DNA from: Thermodesulfobacteriota bacterium
Lineage (GTDB): Bacteria > Desulfobacterota > Anaeroferrophillalia > Anaeroferrophillales > Tharpellaceae
Assembly: GCA_024762675.1 (NCBI GenBank)
Contig: JANTGZ010000004.1
Coordinates: 1 to 62,138 of the forward strand
Length of the DNA stretch: 62,138 nucleotides
Direction of reading: 5' to 3'
Position numbers and translations under genes: made by a program. The notes beneath the pieces were generated by a model that saw only the letters and a program-made list of their open reading frames with translations, ran no database searches and was not told where the DNA came from. This document shows, one piece after another, positions 27,073-35,030 of the stretch (positions are counted from its first letter, which is position 1; every line of letters starts with the position of its first letter).

Positions 27073-28170
27073 TCATTTAATGTGGTCGATTATGCCGTTG
27101 TGGTCTGATTTTGCGCCGTTTGAGCCAAGTACGGAATGAGGTATGCCTTTAAGGGCTTTGGGGCGGTATTCGACAATGTCATTAATGCGCTCGATAACCG
27201 TGTGATGGATGACCGGCAGATCATCTTGAGAGGGCATGTCATTTGCGTTGACTCTTACGTTTCTAGTGTTAAGCGTTGCCCGGGCTATTGGCCACCAGCG
27301 GTCCTGGTAGTGAATCTTACCTTTATGATTAGGCTTGATGAAGACGTCATCAAAGTCGATACGATATTCATCTTTGGGGGCCTTGAGTTTTTCGTATTTA
27401 ATTTTATCTGGCGCTGTGATATCCAAACCGAGTTGTCGTCTCTTTATCTCATTGATCATGAATTCCAGCGTAATATCCGAAAGACCATCGTACCAGAACC
27501 CCCCACCGACATCAGAGTGAGCTCCCGGAAACCAGAGCTCAGTTACCCTTTTCTCCTTATTCATTAGGGTTGGTTGGAAGGCAATTCGTTTTTCGTCCAG
27601 GGATACAAGATGTAAAGCTTCCGCAACATGGGGTGAGATGGTAATATCCTCAAACACTACGTCTGATATGGGTTTGTCGTCATCCTCCAGGTTAGGGAAT
27701 CCGATCGAAGCTACCGTATCGAAAACCCCCATGAAGCGAACGACGCCGGCATCACTGTCATTGTCTGGCAGATAATCGTCAATTACGGCGGCAAAGCGGC
27801 GTGCTAAAGCTGCTCCCCGGCTGAAACCAAACAGAAAGATCCTATCCCCGTTTTCATACACTCTTCTTAAGTTTCTCCCGGCAGATTTAATGATGCGTCC
27901 CACGTCCAGGTTCGGCGGCGAGAATGCGGCATTGAACATCTGTTGGACTTTATTGCCATAGGTTCCAACCCCGGAGTAGTAAAAACTATGTTGTTTTTTG
28001 CTGTGGCTTTCGTTTGTTAAGTTTCCCCCAAGCATGACATGCAGTTTCAAAATATTGGTGATACCGTTGTCTTCGAAATCACCCAGGCCAAACCATTCAC
28101 GTTCCTGCTTAGCGTCGCGAGGGTGATTGCTGGTGCCATCAAAGCATATAATGATATTTTTGTTTTCCAT
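27073..28170 (-). CDS. DUF2235 / Tle1-like alpha-beta hydrolase
   Basis: A 365-residue protein of the DUF2235 family, which includes the Tle1 phospholipase effectors of type VI secretion. The start IIICFDGTSNHP matches the family, the nucleophile elbow is FGFSRGAA (GxSxG), and the acid/base region is FPGAHSDVGGG. No signal peptide and no membrane segment are seen. No T6SS structural gene, VgrG or immunity-like partner lies nearby, so an effector role is not supported by context; a cytoplasmic lipase or esterase is the cautious reading. The ATG at 28170 is preceded by AGGAGGGG. Confidence 0.8.
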   Translation of the reverse strand: MENKNIIICFDGTSNHPRDAKQEREWFGLGDFEDNGITNILKLHVMLGGNLTNESHSKKQHSFYYSGVGTYGNKVQQMFNAAFSPPNLDVGRIIKSAGRNLRRVYENGDRIFLFGFSRGAALARRFAAVIDDYLPDNDSDAGVVRFMGVFDTVASIGFPNLEDDDKPISDVVFEDITISPHVAEALHLVSLDEKRIAFQPTLMNKEKRVTELWFPGAHSDVGGGFWYDGLSDITLEFMINEIKRRQLGLDITAPDKIKYEKLKAPKDEYRIDFDDVFIKPNHKGKIHYQDRWWPIARATLNTRNVRVNANDMPSQDDLPVIHHTVIERINDIVEYRPKALKGIPHSVLGSNGAKSDHNGIIDHIK

Positions 28171-28442: not shown

Positions 28443-28619
28443 TTAAGCCATAAAATCTAAGTTTTGGCCCAGCCCGCCTTCGGCAAGTATCTGAGCCACT
28501 TGTTGCTGGATCTCAGCGATTTCACGAAGCATGGCTACCTGGGTCTCCATGCTGGTTTGTAACTGTTGAGCGGTAGCGGCCATTGCCATGCTGTCGGTTG
28601 ATACGGAACTGATTTCCAT
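28443..28619 (-). CDS. YjfB-like putative motility protein, 58 residues
   Basis: The 58-residue frame starts MEISSVSTDSMAMAATAQQL and ends LGQNLDFMA. A short N-terminal segment is followed by an amphipathic helix rich in Gln/Met/Ala. The size, the early SSV/A segment and the METQVAMLREIAEIQQQ helix resemble the YjfB family of putative motility proteins. AAGGAGAGATC gives a strong ribosome site before the ATG at 28619, and a sigma-28-type promoter lies at 28649-28675 on the same strand. The promoter is independent support for flagellar regulation. The molecular function of the family is unknown. Confidence 0.75.
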   Translation of the reverse strand: MEISSVSTDSMAMAATAQQLQTSMETQVAMLREIAEIQQQVAQILAEGGLGQNLDFMA

Positions 28620-28648
28620 GATCTCTCCTTTTATTTTTACTGCCTCAG

Positions 28649-28675
28649 TTATCGGCGGTAAATAGTAAGACTTTA
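28649..28675 (-). promoter_or_regulatory. Sigma-28 (FliA)-type promoter of the YjfB-like gene
   Basis: On the minus strand TAAAGTCT (28668-28675) and GCCGATAA (28649-28656) are 11 nt apart. The FliA consensus is TAAAGTTT-N11-GCCGATAA, so 15 of 16 positions match with exact spacing. The start codon is 30 nt downstream with its ribosome site between. Confidence 0.8.
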
Positions 28676-29506: not shown

Positions 29507-30385
29507 GTGAACAGGATTGTCGCGAAAGAGGAGTTCTCTAAGAACCCGAGCGTCAAAATGATGCAGATTGAAGCGCCGCGAATTGCCCAAAAGGCGAAGG
29601 GCGGACAGTTTGTTGTTTTCCGTCTTGATGAGACCGGTGAAAGGGTACCATTGACTGTGGCCGACACCGATCCGGAAAAGGGTTTGGTGACCATAATTTT
29701 CCAGGAAGTCGGCAAGAGTACCATGAAGCTCGGCAAGCTCGAAGTGGGCGATTGCCTGGCTGATTTCATCGGGCCACTTGGTCAGCCTACGCATATGGGT
29801 GATTTTGGTACTGTCCTTTGCGTCGCCGGTGGTATCGGGATTGCGCCAACTCATAATATTGTTAAGGCTCTAAAAGCTCATGGCAACAAGGTTATCTCGA
29901 TAATCGGAGCTCGGACCAAGGATCTTCTCTTTTGGGAAGATAAGATGCGTGATTTGAGTGATGAACTCTATGTCTGCACCGATGATGGCTCGTATGGAAT
30001 TCACGGCCTCGTAACCAAGGTCGAACAGGAGCTTTTGGAGAAAAATCGGGAAAGCGGTGAGATTGGCTTGGTCATCGGCATTGGACCTCCGATCATGATG
30101 AAGTTTGTCTGTAAAACCTCTGAACCGTTCGGGATAGAGACTTTGGTCAGCCTGCCGACGATCATGGTCGATGCGACGGGTATGTGTGGTGCTTGCCGGG
30201 TGACGGTTGGTGGCGAGACTAAATTTGTTTGCGTGGACGGGCCTGAATTTGACGGTCATAAGGTTGATTTCGATGAGATGTTGAAAAGACAGAGCATCTA
30301 TGTAGAGCAGGAAAAAGTGGCGGTCGAACGCTACCAGCATCAAGATGATTGTGGTTGCTGTAGCGAATGCGGAGGTGATCAGTAA
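29507..30385 (+). CDS. nfnA: NfnA / SudB-like FAD and [2Fe-2S] subunit
   Basis: A 292-residue ferredoxin-NADP reductase-like protein. It has an FAD-binding barrel (RVPLTVADTDP), an NAD(P) domain (VAGGIGIAPTHNIVKAL) and a C-terminal cluster region (DATGMCGACRVTVGG, then KFVCVDGPEFDGH). That region supplies the Asp plus three Cys typical of the NfnA [2Fe-2S] site. With the next gene it forms NfnAB, an electron-bifurcating NADH-dependent ferredoxin:NADP+ oxidoreductase, also described as sulfide dehydrogenase SudBA. It starts with GTG at 29507 after AAGGAG; a TTGACA at 29345-29350 may be the promoter -35. Its TAA overlaps the nfnB ATG. Confidence 0.9.
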   Translation: MNRIVAKEEFSKNPSVKMMQIEAPRIAQKAKGGQFVVFRLDETGERVPLTVADTDPEKGLVTIIFQEVGKSTMKLGKLEVGDCLADFIGPLGQPTHMGDFGTVLCVAGGIGIAPTHNIVKALKAHGNKVISIIGARTKDLLFWEDKMRDLSDELYVCTDDGSYGIHGLVTKVEQELLEKNRESGEIGLVIGIGPPIMMKFVCKTSEPFGIETLVSLPTIMVDATGMCGACRVTVGGETKFVCVDGPEFDGHKVDFDEMLKRQSIYVEQEKVAVERYQHQDDCGCCSECGGDQ

Positions 30386-31803
30386 TGACTGAAGTTAATA
30401 AGGAAAAAGTAAATAAGGCAAAAAAACTGCCCCGGCATCCGATGCCGGAACAGGAAGCCAAGGTCAGGGCACATAATTTCGAAGAGGTTCCGTTTGGTTA
30501 CTCAAATGAGACCGCAATGCTGGAAGCGAGTCGTTGTCTGCGCTGTAAGAAGCCGAAATGTGTCGAAGGTTGTCCGGTAAATGTCAAGATCCCCGAATTC
30601 ATCGGACTGATTGCTGATGGTGATTTCCTCAAAGCCGCCCATAAACTTAAAGAGACCAATGCCCTGCCGGCGGTTTGCGGTCGGGTTTGCCCCCAGGAGA
30701 GCCAGTGTGAAGCTAAATGTGTACTAAATAAAAAGGGCGATCCGGTGGCGATTGGCCGGCTTGAGCGTTTTGCCGCTGATTTCGAGCGGGCTCAGGGTAA
30801 GATTGAACTTCCAGAGATCGCTCCGGCAACCGGCAAGAAGGTTGCGGTTATCGGTGGTGGCCCGGCTGGTTTGACCGTGGCCGGCGACCTTATTAAACTA
30901 GGTCATCAGGTTACGATCTTTGAGGCTCTGCATAAAACCGGCGGGGTATTGGTTTACGGTATCCCCGAATTTCGTCTGCCTAAAGCGATTGTTCAGGCTG
31001 AGGTTGATTATCTGAAAGCTTTAGGGGTTGAAGTTGTTGAGAGCTATGTAGTCGGTCAGATTGAGACGGTCGATGAGTTATTAGAGCGTTTTGATGCCTG
31101 TTTTATTGGTACTGGGGCCGGCCTGCCGGTCTTTATGAATCTTGAAGGTGAGAATCTTAACGGAGTCTATTCGGCCAATGAGTATCTGACTCGTTCAAAC
31201 CTTATGAAAGCTTATCTCTTTCCTGAATATGATACGCCGATTGTTGTCGGCAAGCGAGTCGCAACCTTTGGCGGCGGTAATGTCGCCATGGATTCATCGC
31301 GGACGGCACTGCGTTTAGGGGCCGAGAAGTCCTATATTATCTATCGTCGTTCGATGGATGAGATGCCGGCTCGGGATGAAGAGATTCATCATGCTGGGGA
31401 AGAGGGGGTTGAATTCCTGCTTTTGGCCAATCCCGAACGTCTGATCGGTGATGAAAAAGGCTGGTTGACCGGGGTTGAGTGTATCAAGATGGAGCTCGGC
31501 GAGCCCGATGAGTCTGGTCGTCGACGCCCGGTAGCGATCGAAGGTTCCGAATTTGTTGTCGATGTTGATACTGTAGTCGTGGCCATCGGTAACGGTCCAA
31601 ATCCCCTGGTGCCGTCAACCACGCCCGATCTGAAAACCAACCGCTGGGGTAATATCGATGCCGACCCGGAAACCGGGGCGACGAGCATGCCGGGGGTTTA
31701 TGCCGGTGGTGATATCGTTACCGGAGCCGCCACCGTGATCGAAGCGATGGGCGCCGGGAAAATAGCGGCGGCATCCATACATGAGTATTTGAGTAACAAG
31801 TAG
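30385..31803 (+). CDS. nfnB: NfnB / glutamate synthase small-subunit-like flavoprotein
   Basis: A 472-residue protein with an N-terminal domain binding two [4Fe-4S] clusters (CLRCKKPKCVEGCPVNVKIP and CGRVCPQESQCEAKC), then two dinucleotide-binding folds (VAVIGGGPAGLTVAGDL and VATFGGGNVAMDSSRTALRL) and a C-terminal FAD closure (GVYAGGDIVTGAATVIEAMG). It is homologous to glutamate synthase beta, but coupling to NfnA and the absence of a large GltB favour NfnB. It would connect the NADH, NADPH and ferredoxin pools. A strong terminator follows. Confidence 0.9.
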   Translation: MTEVNKEKVNKAKKLPRHPMPEQEAKVRAHNFEEVPFGYSNETAMLEASRCLRCKKPKCVEGCPVNVKIPEFIGLIADGDFLKAAHKLKETNALPAVCGRVCPQESQCEAKCVLNKKGDPVAIGRLERFAADFERAQGKIELPEIAPATGKKVAVIGGGPAGLTVAGDLIKLGHQVTIFEALHKTGGVLVYGIPEFRLPKAIVQAEVDYLKALGVEVVESYVVGQIETVDELLERFDACFIGTGAGLPVFMNLEGENLNGVYSANEYLTRSNLMKAYLFPEYDTPIVVGKRVATFGGGNVAMDSSRTALRLGAEKSYIIYRRSMDEMPARDEEIHHAGEEGVEFLLLANPERLIGDEKGWLTGVECIKMELGEPDESGRRRPVAIEGSEFVVDVDTVVVAIGNGPNPLVPSTTPDLKTNRWGNIDADPETGATSMPGVYAGGDIVTGAATVIEAMGAGKIAAASIHEYLSNK

Positions 31804-31877
31804 CCGGTGGGGTCGTGTAAGGTGCCCTGAGAAAGGGTTCGGTTACAGTATTTAAGTTTGTAATAACTGTATTTTAG

Positions 31878-31912
31878 AAAAGGGTCGGAGGCGTTTTGCT
31901 CCGACCCTTTTC
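31878..31912 (+). terminator. Rho-independent terminator of nfnAB
   Basis: The stem AAAGGGTCGGAG (31879-31890) pairs with CTCCGACCCTTT (31899-31910), followed by T residues. Confidence 0.9.
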
Positions 31913-31966
31913 TTGTGTAAATTCCGATAAAATTAAGAAATATTGTAAGAAAGTGTAAACTTTATC

Positions 31967-31993
31967 TTAAGTTTGGCCTTTAATTGCCGATAG
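31967..31993 (+). promoter_or_regulatory. Sigma-28 (FliA)-type promoter of the phnD-like/chemoreceptor operon
   Basis: TTAAGTTT (31967-31974) and GCCGATAG (31986-31993) are exactly 11 nt apart; 14 of 16 positions match the FliA consensus. The start codon is about 118 nt downstream. The rest of the nfnB-phnD gap (31804-32110) is AT-rich, with a terminator and no ORF. Confidence 0.75.
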
Positions 31994-32110
31994 TAAAATT
32001 AAATCTTTTTAAGGTTGTCAGTCGGGTGCAATATTTACAGTTGTTGGTACAGGTTTGAATGTGAAGTTATTTTATCTATGTCAATGTACAAATGCCAAGT
32101 GGGGTGAGCA

Positions 32111-32920
32111 ATGAAAAAGAGTGTTTTTGTTGGAATTGTTTTGTTGTTATTGTGTGTTGTAAATGTTCAGGCTGAAATTGTTTTCGGTGTGATTCCTTTA
32201 GAGGATAAAGCGGAAATGGTTCAGAAATTTACACCGTTGTGTGAATATCTGAGTGCTAAACTGGGTGAACCGGTGACCTTGAAAGTCGGTTCAGATTATG
32301 ATGAGATCGAAAATGGTCTGGTGAAGGGGGGCATTCAGGCGGCCTACCTCGGACCTGTCGGCGCGGTTAAGGGTAATAAAGCAAATCGTTCGGTTATTCC
32401 GATTGTTAAGGTAGTCAAGAAGGGCTCACCATTTTATAAATCATACGTCGTAGCGCCAAAAGAGAGCTCTTTGCAGGGGGTTTCCGACCTTAAGGGGAAG
32501 GTCTTTGCTTTTGGTGACAAAGGGTCAACTTCCTCATATTTGGTGCCCAAATACCTGCTGGCCAAAAGCGGGGTAAAGCTTGCTGATCTGAAAGAGCATC
32601 TCTTGACCGGTTCTCACTCGAACGTGATCCGGGCTGTGCTTGAGGGGAAGGCTGCAGCCGGTGGTGTCAAGGAGAGTGTGGCTTTAAAAAATCAGGACAA
32701 ACTGAAGTTTCTTGAAATCTCCAATCCGATTCCCAACTTTCCGATCTGCGTTAATATCAAGGCCCTGGGCAAAGAGAAAGCGAAAAACTTACAGAAACTC
32801 CTTTTGACTCTGCCGAAGAAAGCCACTGAGGTGATAGCGATCAGCAAAAAATATGATAATTTTACCAAGGCCTCAATTGGAGATTATCGGATTATAGAGT
32901 CAATTATGAAGCAGAAATAA
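32111..32920 (+). CDS. PhnD-type periplasmic phosphate/phosphonate-like binding protein
   Basis: A 269-residue exported protein. A signal peptide (MKKSVFVGIVLLLLCVV, cleavage near VQA-EI) is followed by a type 2 periplasmic-binding fold of the PhnD family (VFGVIPLEDKAEMVQKF, LAKSGVKLADLK). No ABC ATPase or permease is beside it. The next gene, 11 nt away, is a chemoreceptor, and both appear to be under a sigma-28-type promoter. A role as ligand-delivery protein for chemotaxis rather than import is therefore likely. The ligand is unknown: PhnD-like proteins bind phosphonate, phosphite, phosphate and unrelated anions. Confidence 0.85.
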   Translation: MKKSVFVGIVLLLLCVVNVQAEIVFGVIPLEDKAEMVQKFTPLCEYLSAKLGEPVTLKVGSDYDEIENGLVKGGIQAAYLGPVGAVKGNKANRSVIPIVKVVKKGSPFYKSYVVAPKESSLQGVSDLKGKVFAFGDKGSTSSYLVPKYLLAKSGVKLADLKEHLLTGSHSNVIRAVLEGKAAAGGVKESVALKNQDKLKFLEISNPIPNFPICVNIKALGKEKAKNLQKLLLTLPKKATEVIAISKKYDNFTKASIGDYRIIESIMKQK

Positions 32921-32931
32921 GGATGTAAGCG

Positions 32932-34950
32932 ATGACGATTAAAAGCAAACTTCTATTTGCCATGATCCTGGTCGGTGTGTTGCCGGTTTTGCTGGTAACC
33001 GGTTATGTCAGTTTTAAAATCTCTGATTTTCTGGAGCAGAGCCAGGGTGCTGCAATGCAGAGGGATTGTGAGAAGGTGCGGCAATATTTTGATGGCAGTA
33101 TGCGTCGGCGAGATCGTGACCTGCGAGTCTTGAAAGCCAATCCGATACTTTCCGAATCGTTAATGAGTGACTTTGACTATAGCGTTGTAGATCAATTATT
33201 GACAGATTTGGTGGCTGACAAAGATAATCCTTTCTCATTTATAATGCTGACCAAGGCAGACGGCACCACGGTTGGCGCCAGTGATGCACGTTTGGTGGGG
33301 AAAGAGAATGCCAATAAAAAGTGGCACCAGGAGACCTTGGCCAAAGGGCGTTACTACTCCGACTGGAACCGGCGGCCGGAGAAGGCAATTTTGTCAAACC
33401 CGCCTTTTGGTGGGGAATATCGCTATACCCAGGTCGTCTCTCGGCGGATATCTGGAACCGATGGAGACGCACTGGGGACGATTAACGCCCGGGTTAAATG
33501 GCAACTTCTTCAGCAGTGGCTAGCGCAAGAGATCGAAGGATTTCGTAAATCCGGTTGGCTGAGTAAAAAGGTCACCGTTGTAAAAGGTGATGGCGCCATT
33601 ATAGCGCATGCGGAAGGTAGCGCCTTTTATGGTAAACCTCTTGGCGAGATTTTGGCCGATAAAGTTAATTTAAAGAAAGTGATGGAGCAGGATGCAGGGT
33701 TTCTTCATGATTCAGGGCATGGGATAGCTCAGGTCTGCAGTTTTACAACACTGACCTTTGGTGAAAGTACTTGGAAAATCCTGGTGACGGCGGCAGAGTC
33801 TGAGTTTTTCCAGGTTAAAAAAGAGTTCTTGATGGCTCTGGCCGGGGTTTGTGTGTTTTGTCTGGTTCTGGCCGTGTTTTTTGGCTTGTTGGCGGGCAAC
33901 AGTGTTGCCCGACCGCTGAAGCAAGTTGTCATATTGCTTCAGGAGATCGCATCCGGGGCCGGCGATCTGACAGTTCGTCTGCCAACTGGTGCCGCCGGTA
34001 AGAAAATCGATGAAATTGGACAGCTTTCGTCAGCGTTCAATGAGTTTGTTGGAAAACTCCACAATATCTTCAAGGAGGTTTTGGATGGACTGCACTCTCT
34101 TAATGCCTCTTCCGGCCATTTGACGGGTATGGCAGAGATTCTTTCAGATGGCGCTCGGACAGCATCGGAGCGTTCGGACGGAGTCGCGGCGGCTGCTGAA
34201 GAGATGAGTTCCAATATGAACAGTGTCGCAGCAGCAGTCGAAGAGGCTTCTACCAATATAAGCCAGGTGGCAGATGCTGCGGGTGAGATGAGTTCTGCTT
34301 TCGGCCAGATTGCCGGGCGCACAGGTGAGGCGCGGCAGGTAACTGAAACCGCAGTTCAGCAGGTAGGTGATGCGACGGAGAAAGTTGCTGAACTCGGTGA
34401 GGTGGCTGCTCAGATTGGTCAGGTGGTTGAAACTATCACCTCAATTTCTGCCCAGACCAACCTGTTGGCTTTAAATGCTACGATTGAGGCGGCCCGGGCC
34501 GGAGAGGCTGGAAAGGGGTTTGCGGTTGTCGCCAATGAAATTAAAGAACTTGCCGGGCAGACGGCGGTGGCGACTGATGAGATCAGTGACCGAATCGATG
34601 GTATTCAAAGCTCGGTTGGCGGCACTGTGTCAATTATTGAGCAGATCAGTGTCGTGATCAATCGGGTAAATGAAATCGTTGCTGCTATTGCCGCTAACAT
34701 TGAAGAGCAGGATGTGGTGACCGGGCAGATTGCCGACAACGTTGGGCAGGCTTCCAGCGGTATTTTGGAAGTGGCGGAGAATGTGGCCCAGAGTTCTACT
34801 GTTTCCGGACAGGTGACTGGTGATATTACTGAGGTCAGCCGAACGGTGACGGAAATTACTGATTCCGGAGGGGAGGTTAAGCAGAGTGCTGATGAATTAG
34901 CGACGCTGGCCGGTCGTCTGCAGGAGTTGGTCGGTAATTTTAAACTTTAA
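32932..34950 (+). CDS. Methyl-accepting chemotaxis protein
   Basis: A 672-residue chemoreceptor. TM1 (residues about 7-30) and a periplasmic sensor of about 265 residues with Cache-like strands ([28 protein letters not shown]) come first. TM2 (about 298-322) follows, then HAMP ([14 protein letters not shown] onward) and a signalling domain with the tip [20 protein letters not shown]. There is no C-terminal CheR-tether pentapeptide. It forms a two-gene operon with the upstream binding protein, with a terminator after it, and would feed into CheA/CheW elsewhere in the genome. Confidence 0.95.
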
Positions 34951-34983: not shown

Positions 34984-35030
34984 AAACAAAAAGACCGGCA
35001 AGTTTGAAAAAACTGCCGGTCTTTTTGTTT
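34984..35030 (+). terminator. Rho-independent terminator of the chemoreceptor operon
   Basis: The stem ACAAAAAGACCGGCA (in 34986-35000) pairs with TGCCGGTCTTTTTGT, giving a long, T-ended hairpin, 33 nt after the stop codon. Confidence 0.9.

Follow-up and report, generated by a model that had tools for sequence, protein, structure and literature searches.

A PhnD-type binding protein encoded next to a chemoreceptor: a probable two-gene unit for indirect chemotaxis in a Thermodesulfobacteriota bacterium

The PhnD-fold proteins AioX, ArxX and ArrX act in sensing without taking part in transport (PMC5908839). In indirect chemotaxis, the binding proteins reviewed together with the CtpL-PstS system all double as parts of transporters (PMC4926252), while AibA and AibB of Helicobacter pylori constitute, with TlpB, another binding-protein-dependent chemotaxis pathway (PMC11705807). 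In the open-access literature that we searched, we found no direct report of a PhnD-type protein working with a chemoreceptor.

Here we analyzed a stretch of 62,138 nucleotides (the window), which corresponds to contig C4 of a draft genome that has 217 contigs, a total length of 2.9 Mb and a completeness of 90.8%. It encodes a PhnD-type periplasmic binding protein (PBP) followed by a methyl-accepting chemotaxis protein (MCP). We consider it probable that this PBP serves taxis only, sensing an oxyanion and feeding a double-CACHE (dCACHE) receptor, and that the two genes form one unit for indirect chemotaxis and not for transport.

Structure of the two-gene locus

The two genes are on the + strand, between a gene encoding a glutamate-synthase-type oxidoreductase (30385-31803) and the nuo genes (from 35339). 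The region contains the following features.

31876-31913, + strand: hairpin resembling an intrinsic terminator, 3' of the upstream glutamate-synthase-type oxidoreductase gene (-27 kcal/mol, z -6.85)
31967-31993, + strand: sigma-28 (FliA)-type promoter, TTAAGTTT-N11-GCCGATAG, two mismatches to the consensus
32072-32089, + strand: block TTAT[C/T]TATGTCAATGTAC (also written TTATYTATGTCAATGTAC) before the PBP start codon, common to the window and the congener in an alignment of the upstream regions
32111-32920, + strand: PBP, 269 amino acids, PF12974 at 190.6 bits
32111-32173, + strand: putative signal peptide of the PBP (MKKSVFVGIVLLLLCVVNVQA), with a basic start, a hydrophobic core and a V-x-A end, judged by reading the sequence
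32932-34950, + strand: MCP, 672 amino acids, Pfam HAMP at 44.9 bits and MCPsignal at 108.3 bits
33019-33837, + strand: periplasmic sensor region of the MCP, divergent double-CACHE by dCache_1 and Foldseek
34985-35029, + strand: hairpin resembling an intrinsic terminator, 3' of the MCP gene (-27.8 kcal/mol, z -8.72)

The PBP covered the complete PF12974 profile (1 to 242 of 242; cut-off, 27 bits), placing it in that family, and no lipobox was visible on reading its sequence. HAMP and MCPsignal were both above their cut-offs in the second protein, which has the composition of a transmembrane MCP with a periplasmic sensor, a HAMP domain and a signaling domain. The genes are separated by 11 nt and no ABC gene adjoins them. 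The open reading frames and domain matches thus confirmed what the preliminary description had proposed, namely, a PhnD-type protein lacking adjacent ABC genes and placed 11 nt before a chemoreceptor. Both flanking hairpins carry T-rich tails, and the upstream one has an equivalent in the congener (L024:775-824). They were found by folding; a simple terminator scan had missed them, presumably because of its loop limit. Since strong hairpins bracket the PBP and MCP genes, these look like a single bicistronic unit.

As a separate observation in the window, a stand-alone protein encoded at 27073-28170 (- strand) matched PF09994, the catalytic domain of T6SS Tle1-like phospholipases, at 163 bits.

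Conservation of the pair, and a putative promoter particular to this genome

Three orthologues of the PBP were recovered when about 85,000 genomes were scanned, one in a congener (L024, 86% identical) and one in each of two Desulfoluna species (L025 and L026), a genus belonging to the same phylum as that of the window. In all three cases the PBP gene was immediately followed, in the same orientation, by that of the orthologous MCP, and none of the three PBP genes was adjoined by ABC genes. The arrangement that would have spoken against a taxis role, relatives pairing the PBP with an ABC permease and not with a chemoreceptor, was therefore not seen in any orthologue; the earlier reading of the PBP as a sensor and not an importer, part of a two-gene module without a transporter, is retained. 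The sensor region of the MCP was 69% identical to that of the window in the congener and about 48% identical in Desulfoluna. The Desulfoluna pairs adjoin PurL/PurF-type genes and not nuo, only the PBP-MCP pair itself being common, and this difference in neighborhood indicates that the pair holds together independently of its context. In the comparison with the congener, the dN/dS ratios of the PBP and MCP genes were about 0.07 and 0.13, respectively, indicating purifying selection on both. Within the genus of the window, the PBP of the pair was present at 86 to 100% identity in 2 of 13 genomes; since the pair occurs patchily and in two genera distant from each other, its horizontal transfer is a candidate explanation. 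Orthologous pairs known to us number four, too few for a co-evolution analysis. One Desulfoluna receptor (L025:6903-9269) carries an additional C-terminal CZB zinc-binding domain (32.2 bits), which the receptor of the window lacks.

We then considered how the pair might be transcribed. Compared with the sigma-28 consensus used here (TAAAGTTT-N11-GCCGATAA), the motif that the preliminary description had placed upstream of both genes proved to be a near-consensus site: an equal or better match was obtained in only 14 of 20,000 dinucleotide shuffles of the 307-nt intergenic region (p about 7e-4). FliA itself is encoded in the genome (C48:3816-4487, 256 bits), so a consensus-type promoter and its sigma factor are found together. 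Genome-wide, there were nine sites with at most two mismatches, versus three for the reversed control. Of the eight sites other than that of the pair, one lies upstream of flgM, one upstream of a small gene that comes before flgF, and one upstream of a YjfB-like motility gene; none of the remaining two-mismatch matches had a motility gene where one would be expected, and no equally good site was found directly upstream of the other MCP genes examined. The YjfB-like protein (58 amino acids, MEISSVSTDSMAMAATAQQLQ...) is encoded within the window at 28443-28675 (- strand), directly after a single-mismatch sigma-28 site (28649-28675, - strand), and falls below the 120-amino-acid limit of the open reading frame list.

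Upstream of the three orthologues, no sigma-28 site was found within five mismatches, the best having six or seven, and this included the congener, the genome of which has a flgM-type sigma-28 site elsewhere. Since the site is absent from all three, flagellar co-control is a local feature of this genome and not a property of the PBP-MCP pair, and it could not be upheld as the defining feature that it was first taken to be. The same absence, together with the conservation in the congener of the block near the start codon, would favor a different view, in which the resemblance to a sigma-28 site is fortuitous and the unit has another promoter, located perhaps close to the block at 32072-32089. 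We regard this as unlikely, given the low shuffle probability, the occurrence in this genome of FliA and of well-matching sites ahead of flgM and motility genes, and the outcome of a simple scan of the intergenic + strand, in which nothing resembling a sigma-70 site was found. As judged from the sequence, the FliA promoter is thus probably the start of transcription of the pair in this genome.

Predicted ligand pocket and relatives in the phylum

Mapping from AioX and PhnD predicted an oxyanion pocket in the PBP composed of Y63, Y109, S139, T140, S141, H169 and K187. Five of these, Y63, Y109, S139, S141 and H169, correspond to Tyr88, Tyr131, Ser161, Ser163 and His192 of AioX and are invariant in the four orthologues, while T140 corresponds to Thr128 of PhnD. 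At two further positions the PBP departs from AioX, with Gly81 at the arsenite-linking Cys106 and Lys187 at Asp210, and for this reason we did not file it as a member of AioX/ArrX. Arsenite, a conceivable ligand given the resemblance of the relatives to AioX, was judged unlikely because the arsenite-linking cysteine is replaced by Gly81. On the basis of these residues, we predict that the ligand is a tetrahedral oxyanion of the phosphate, arsenate, phosphite or phosphonate class. An AlphaFold model of the PBP built from the four-sequence alignment was poor (pLDDT 50.3) and was discarded. The segment around Lys187 (GGVKES) fits the G[AG]VK[DE] motif found in most of the relatives linked to histidine kinases, while PtxB, the 5jvb protein and the ABC-linked protein L128 have GGLS at this position.

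We classified 41 related PBPs from the phylum, nearly all of them among the most similar, by their adjoining gene. A histidine kinase was the neighbor in 32 cases, another chemoreceptor in 3 and an ABC ATPase in 2; the 4 others had no classified neighbor, 2 of them being cut by contig ends. The general statement, made at the outset, that PhnD-fold proteins usually belong to transport does not hold for these relatives, nor for AioX and ArrX, which only sense (PMC5908839). An AAA+ response regulator comes after many of the linked kinases, matching the published X-S-R order of the AioX system. Genes encoding ArrA-like, ArsC-like or ACR3 proteins adjoin some of the loci. In four cases (L102:8908-10799, L109:9057-10799, L126:3-1847 and L129:66-1907), PhnD-type proteins linked to kinases are encoded close to ArrA-like arsenate reductases and yet lack the Cys106 of the AioX family, which suggests that they are a different set of arsenate-sensing proteins in the phylum.

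A maximum-likelihood tree was built from 48 proteins, and two changes were needed to account for the seven PBPs linked to an MCP. The clade of the window had a support of 95/93, with a weak deep placement and long branches. A second MCP-linked clade, at L103:4930-7534, L104:427-3406 and L117:5023-7907, had a support of 100/100 and was sister to kinase-linked proteins. The L103 pair adjoins cheR, cheD and cheB. The receptors of this clade have sensor domains unrelated to that of the window MCP; the L103 receptor has a four-helix bundle, and the sensors of the L104 and L117 receptors were not recognized. The best reading of these data is that a sensory module known from kinase systems came to deliver its output to chemotaxis instead, and the tree indicates this switch two or more times. 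More tentatively, it is possible that the PhnD-fold proteins of the phylum are plug-in oxyanion sensors that normally report to kinases, and that at least two independent lineages were re-wired to a chemoreceptor, giving rise to taxis-only PBPs, among them the window pair, with arsenate, phosphate or a related compound as ligand.

The assignment to PhnCDE or PtxABC transporters failed on two grounds, the absence of a cognate PhnE from the assembly and the presence of an MCP instead of ABC genes beside the orthologues. The assembly, 91% complete, yielded no PhnE permease, the best match reaching 21 bits against a cut-off of 216.7, although at this completeness a transporter could be missing. 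Two other PF12974 proteins of the genome are tied to histidine kinases, and none of the other PF12974 proteins was found paired with a PhnE-type permease. The other matches include a PhnD-PAS-kinase fusion and, at L011:151-1932 (G000 C174), a 593-amino-acid protein combining PstS-like and PhnD-like binding domains that is encoded ahead of a histidine kinase. The PhnD-like part of the latter has, close to its end, a CFECH (CxxCH) motif that could bind heme c.

These results bear on the proposal that the PBP is an orphan transport component serving a distant ABC permease, with the MCP either sensing the compound directly or piggy-backing as CtpL does on PstS. The names of the PF12974, TIGR01098 and TIGR03431 models refer to ABC transport, and the binding proteins of the published indirect systems serve both a transporter and a receptor (PMC4926252), but this explanation is quite unlikely in view of the lack of PhnE in the assembly, the absence of an adjacent ABC partner from all three orthologues, the predominance of kinases next to the relatives, and a pocket signature unlike that of the ABC-linked PtxB, 5jvb and L128 proteins. 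Given that it has no ABC partner and that its kin are mostly found beside histidine kinases, the PBP is most likely not a transport component.

The receptor and comparison with known systems

The sensor region of the MCP matched dCache_1 only weakly (23.3 bits, below the cut-off of 45). An AlphaFold model of the N-terminal part, built from the four-sequence alignment, was poor (pLDDT 57.9) and was used as a hint of the fold only; its Foldseek matches were the ligand-binding domains of PctD, TlpQ, PctA and TlpC, which are dCACHE chemoreceptor domains. The region was not matched by the sensors of the other PBP-linked MCPs. A possible homology to the sensors of PBP-linked kinases (hhalign, 55%) concerned the membrane-proximal part, including the transmembrane helix, and was too weak to be claimed. 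The MCP sensor region, when searched for in 395 genomes from the phylum and 292 genomes from the Desulfoluna order, was detected only where the PBP was also present.

Receptors of the dCACHE type normally bind their ligands directly, and this MCP may itself sense something in that way. That this is its sole input, a small ligand being sensed directly while the PBP serves a separate pathway, e.g., that of a histidine kinase, and the operon being no more than a convenient way to regulate the two genes together, would agree with that habit and with the model's matches to the PctD, TlpQ and PctA sensor domains, but it is quite improbable since two genera retain the pair, in two gene neighborhoods that are unrelated, the sensor region was not found without the PBP in the genomes searched, and the other PhnD-type sensors of the genome already have kinases of their own.

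In the taxis-only reading that we favor, the PBP and MCP genes would constitute a single transcription unit for indirect chemotaxis, transcribed in this genome from the FliA promoter. The PBP would be exported and close on a tetrahedral oxyanion, and the loaded form would dock on the divergent dCACHE sensor region of the neighboring MCP, which would then signal to CheA via HAMP and the MCP tip. The contact between the two proteins, the delivery of the ligand and the direction of taxis are each what we infer, and not observe, at this locus. If this reading is correct, a taxis-only PBP within the transcription unit of its receptor separates sensing from uptake, and the ligand could be found with two small proteins. 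It would also mean that either kinases or chemoreceptors can serve as partners of the same PhnD-fold sensor, which would help to predict the ligands of orphan receptors.

The AioX-AioS-AioR and ArrX/ArxX systems (PDB 6ESK, 6EU7 and 6X6B) likewise have a PhnD-fold sensing protein beside a membrane partner and no transporter, but that partner is a kinase, whereas the window PBP has a chemoreceptor in place of a sensor kinase and response regulator; the sequence similarity between AioX and the window PBP is modest, at about 75 bits. The phosphite and phosphonate ABC binding proteins PtxB and PhnD (PDB 5O2J, 5JVB and 3P7I) share the core oxyanion residues of the PBP, and 5O2J and 5JVB were its best sequence matches in the PDB, at about 102 bits. 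They have an ABC permease, however, while the window PBP has none and carries GGVKES where PtxB and 5jvb have GGLS. In the phosphate taxis of Pseudomonas aeruginosa, the chemoreceptor CtpL is fed by the periplasmic oxyanion-binding protein PstS (PMC4926252), as proposed here, but PstS belongs to a working transporter and serves both functions, whereas the window PBP is of the PhnD type and lies in the receptor's own unit without a transporter. AibA and AibB also are periplasmic binding proteins that act with a chemoreceptor, TlpB, as we propose for the window pair, the ligand in H. pylori being AI-2. The pair thus differs from the known indirect systems in combining a PhnD-type protein, a transcription unit shared with the receptor and the absence of a transporter.
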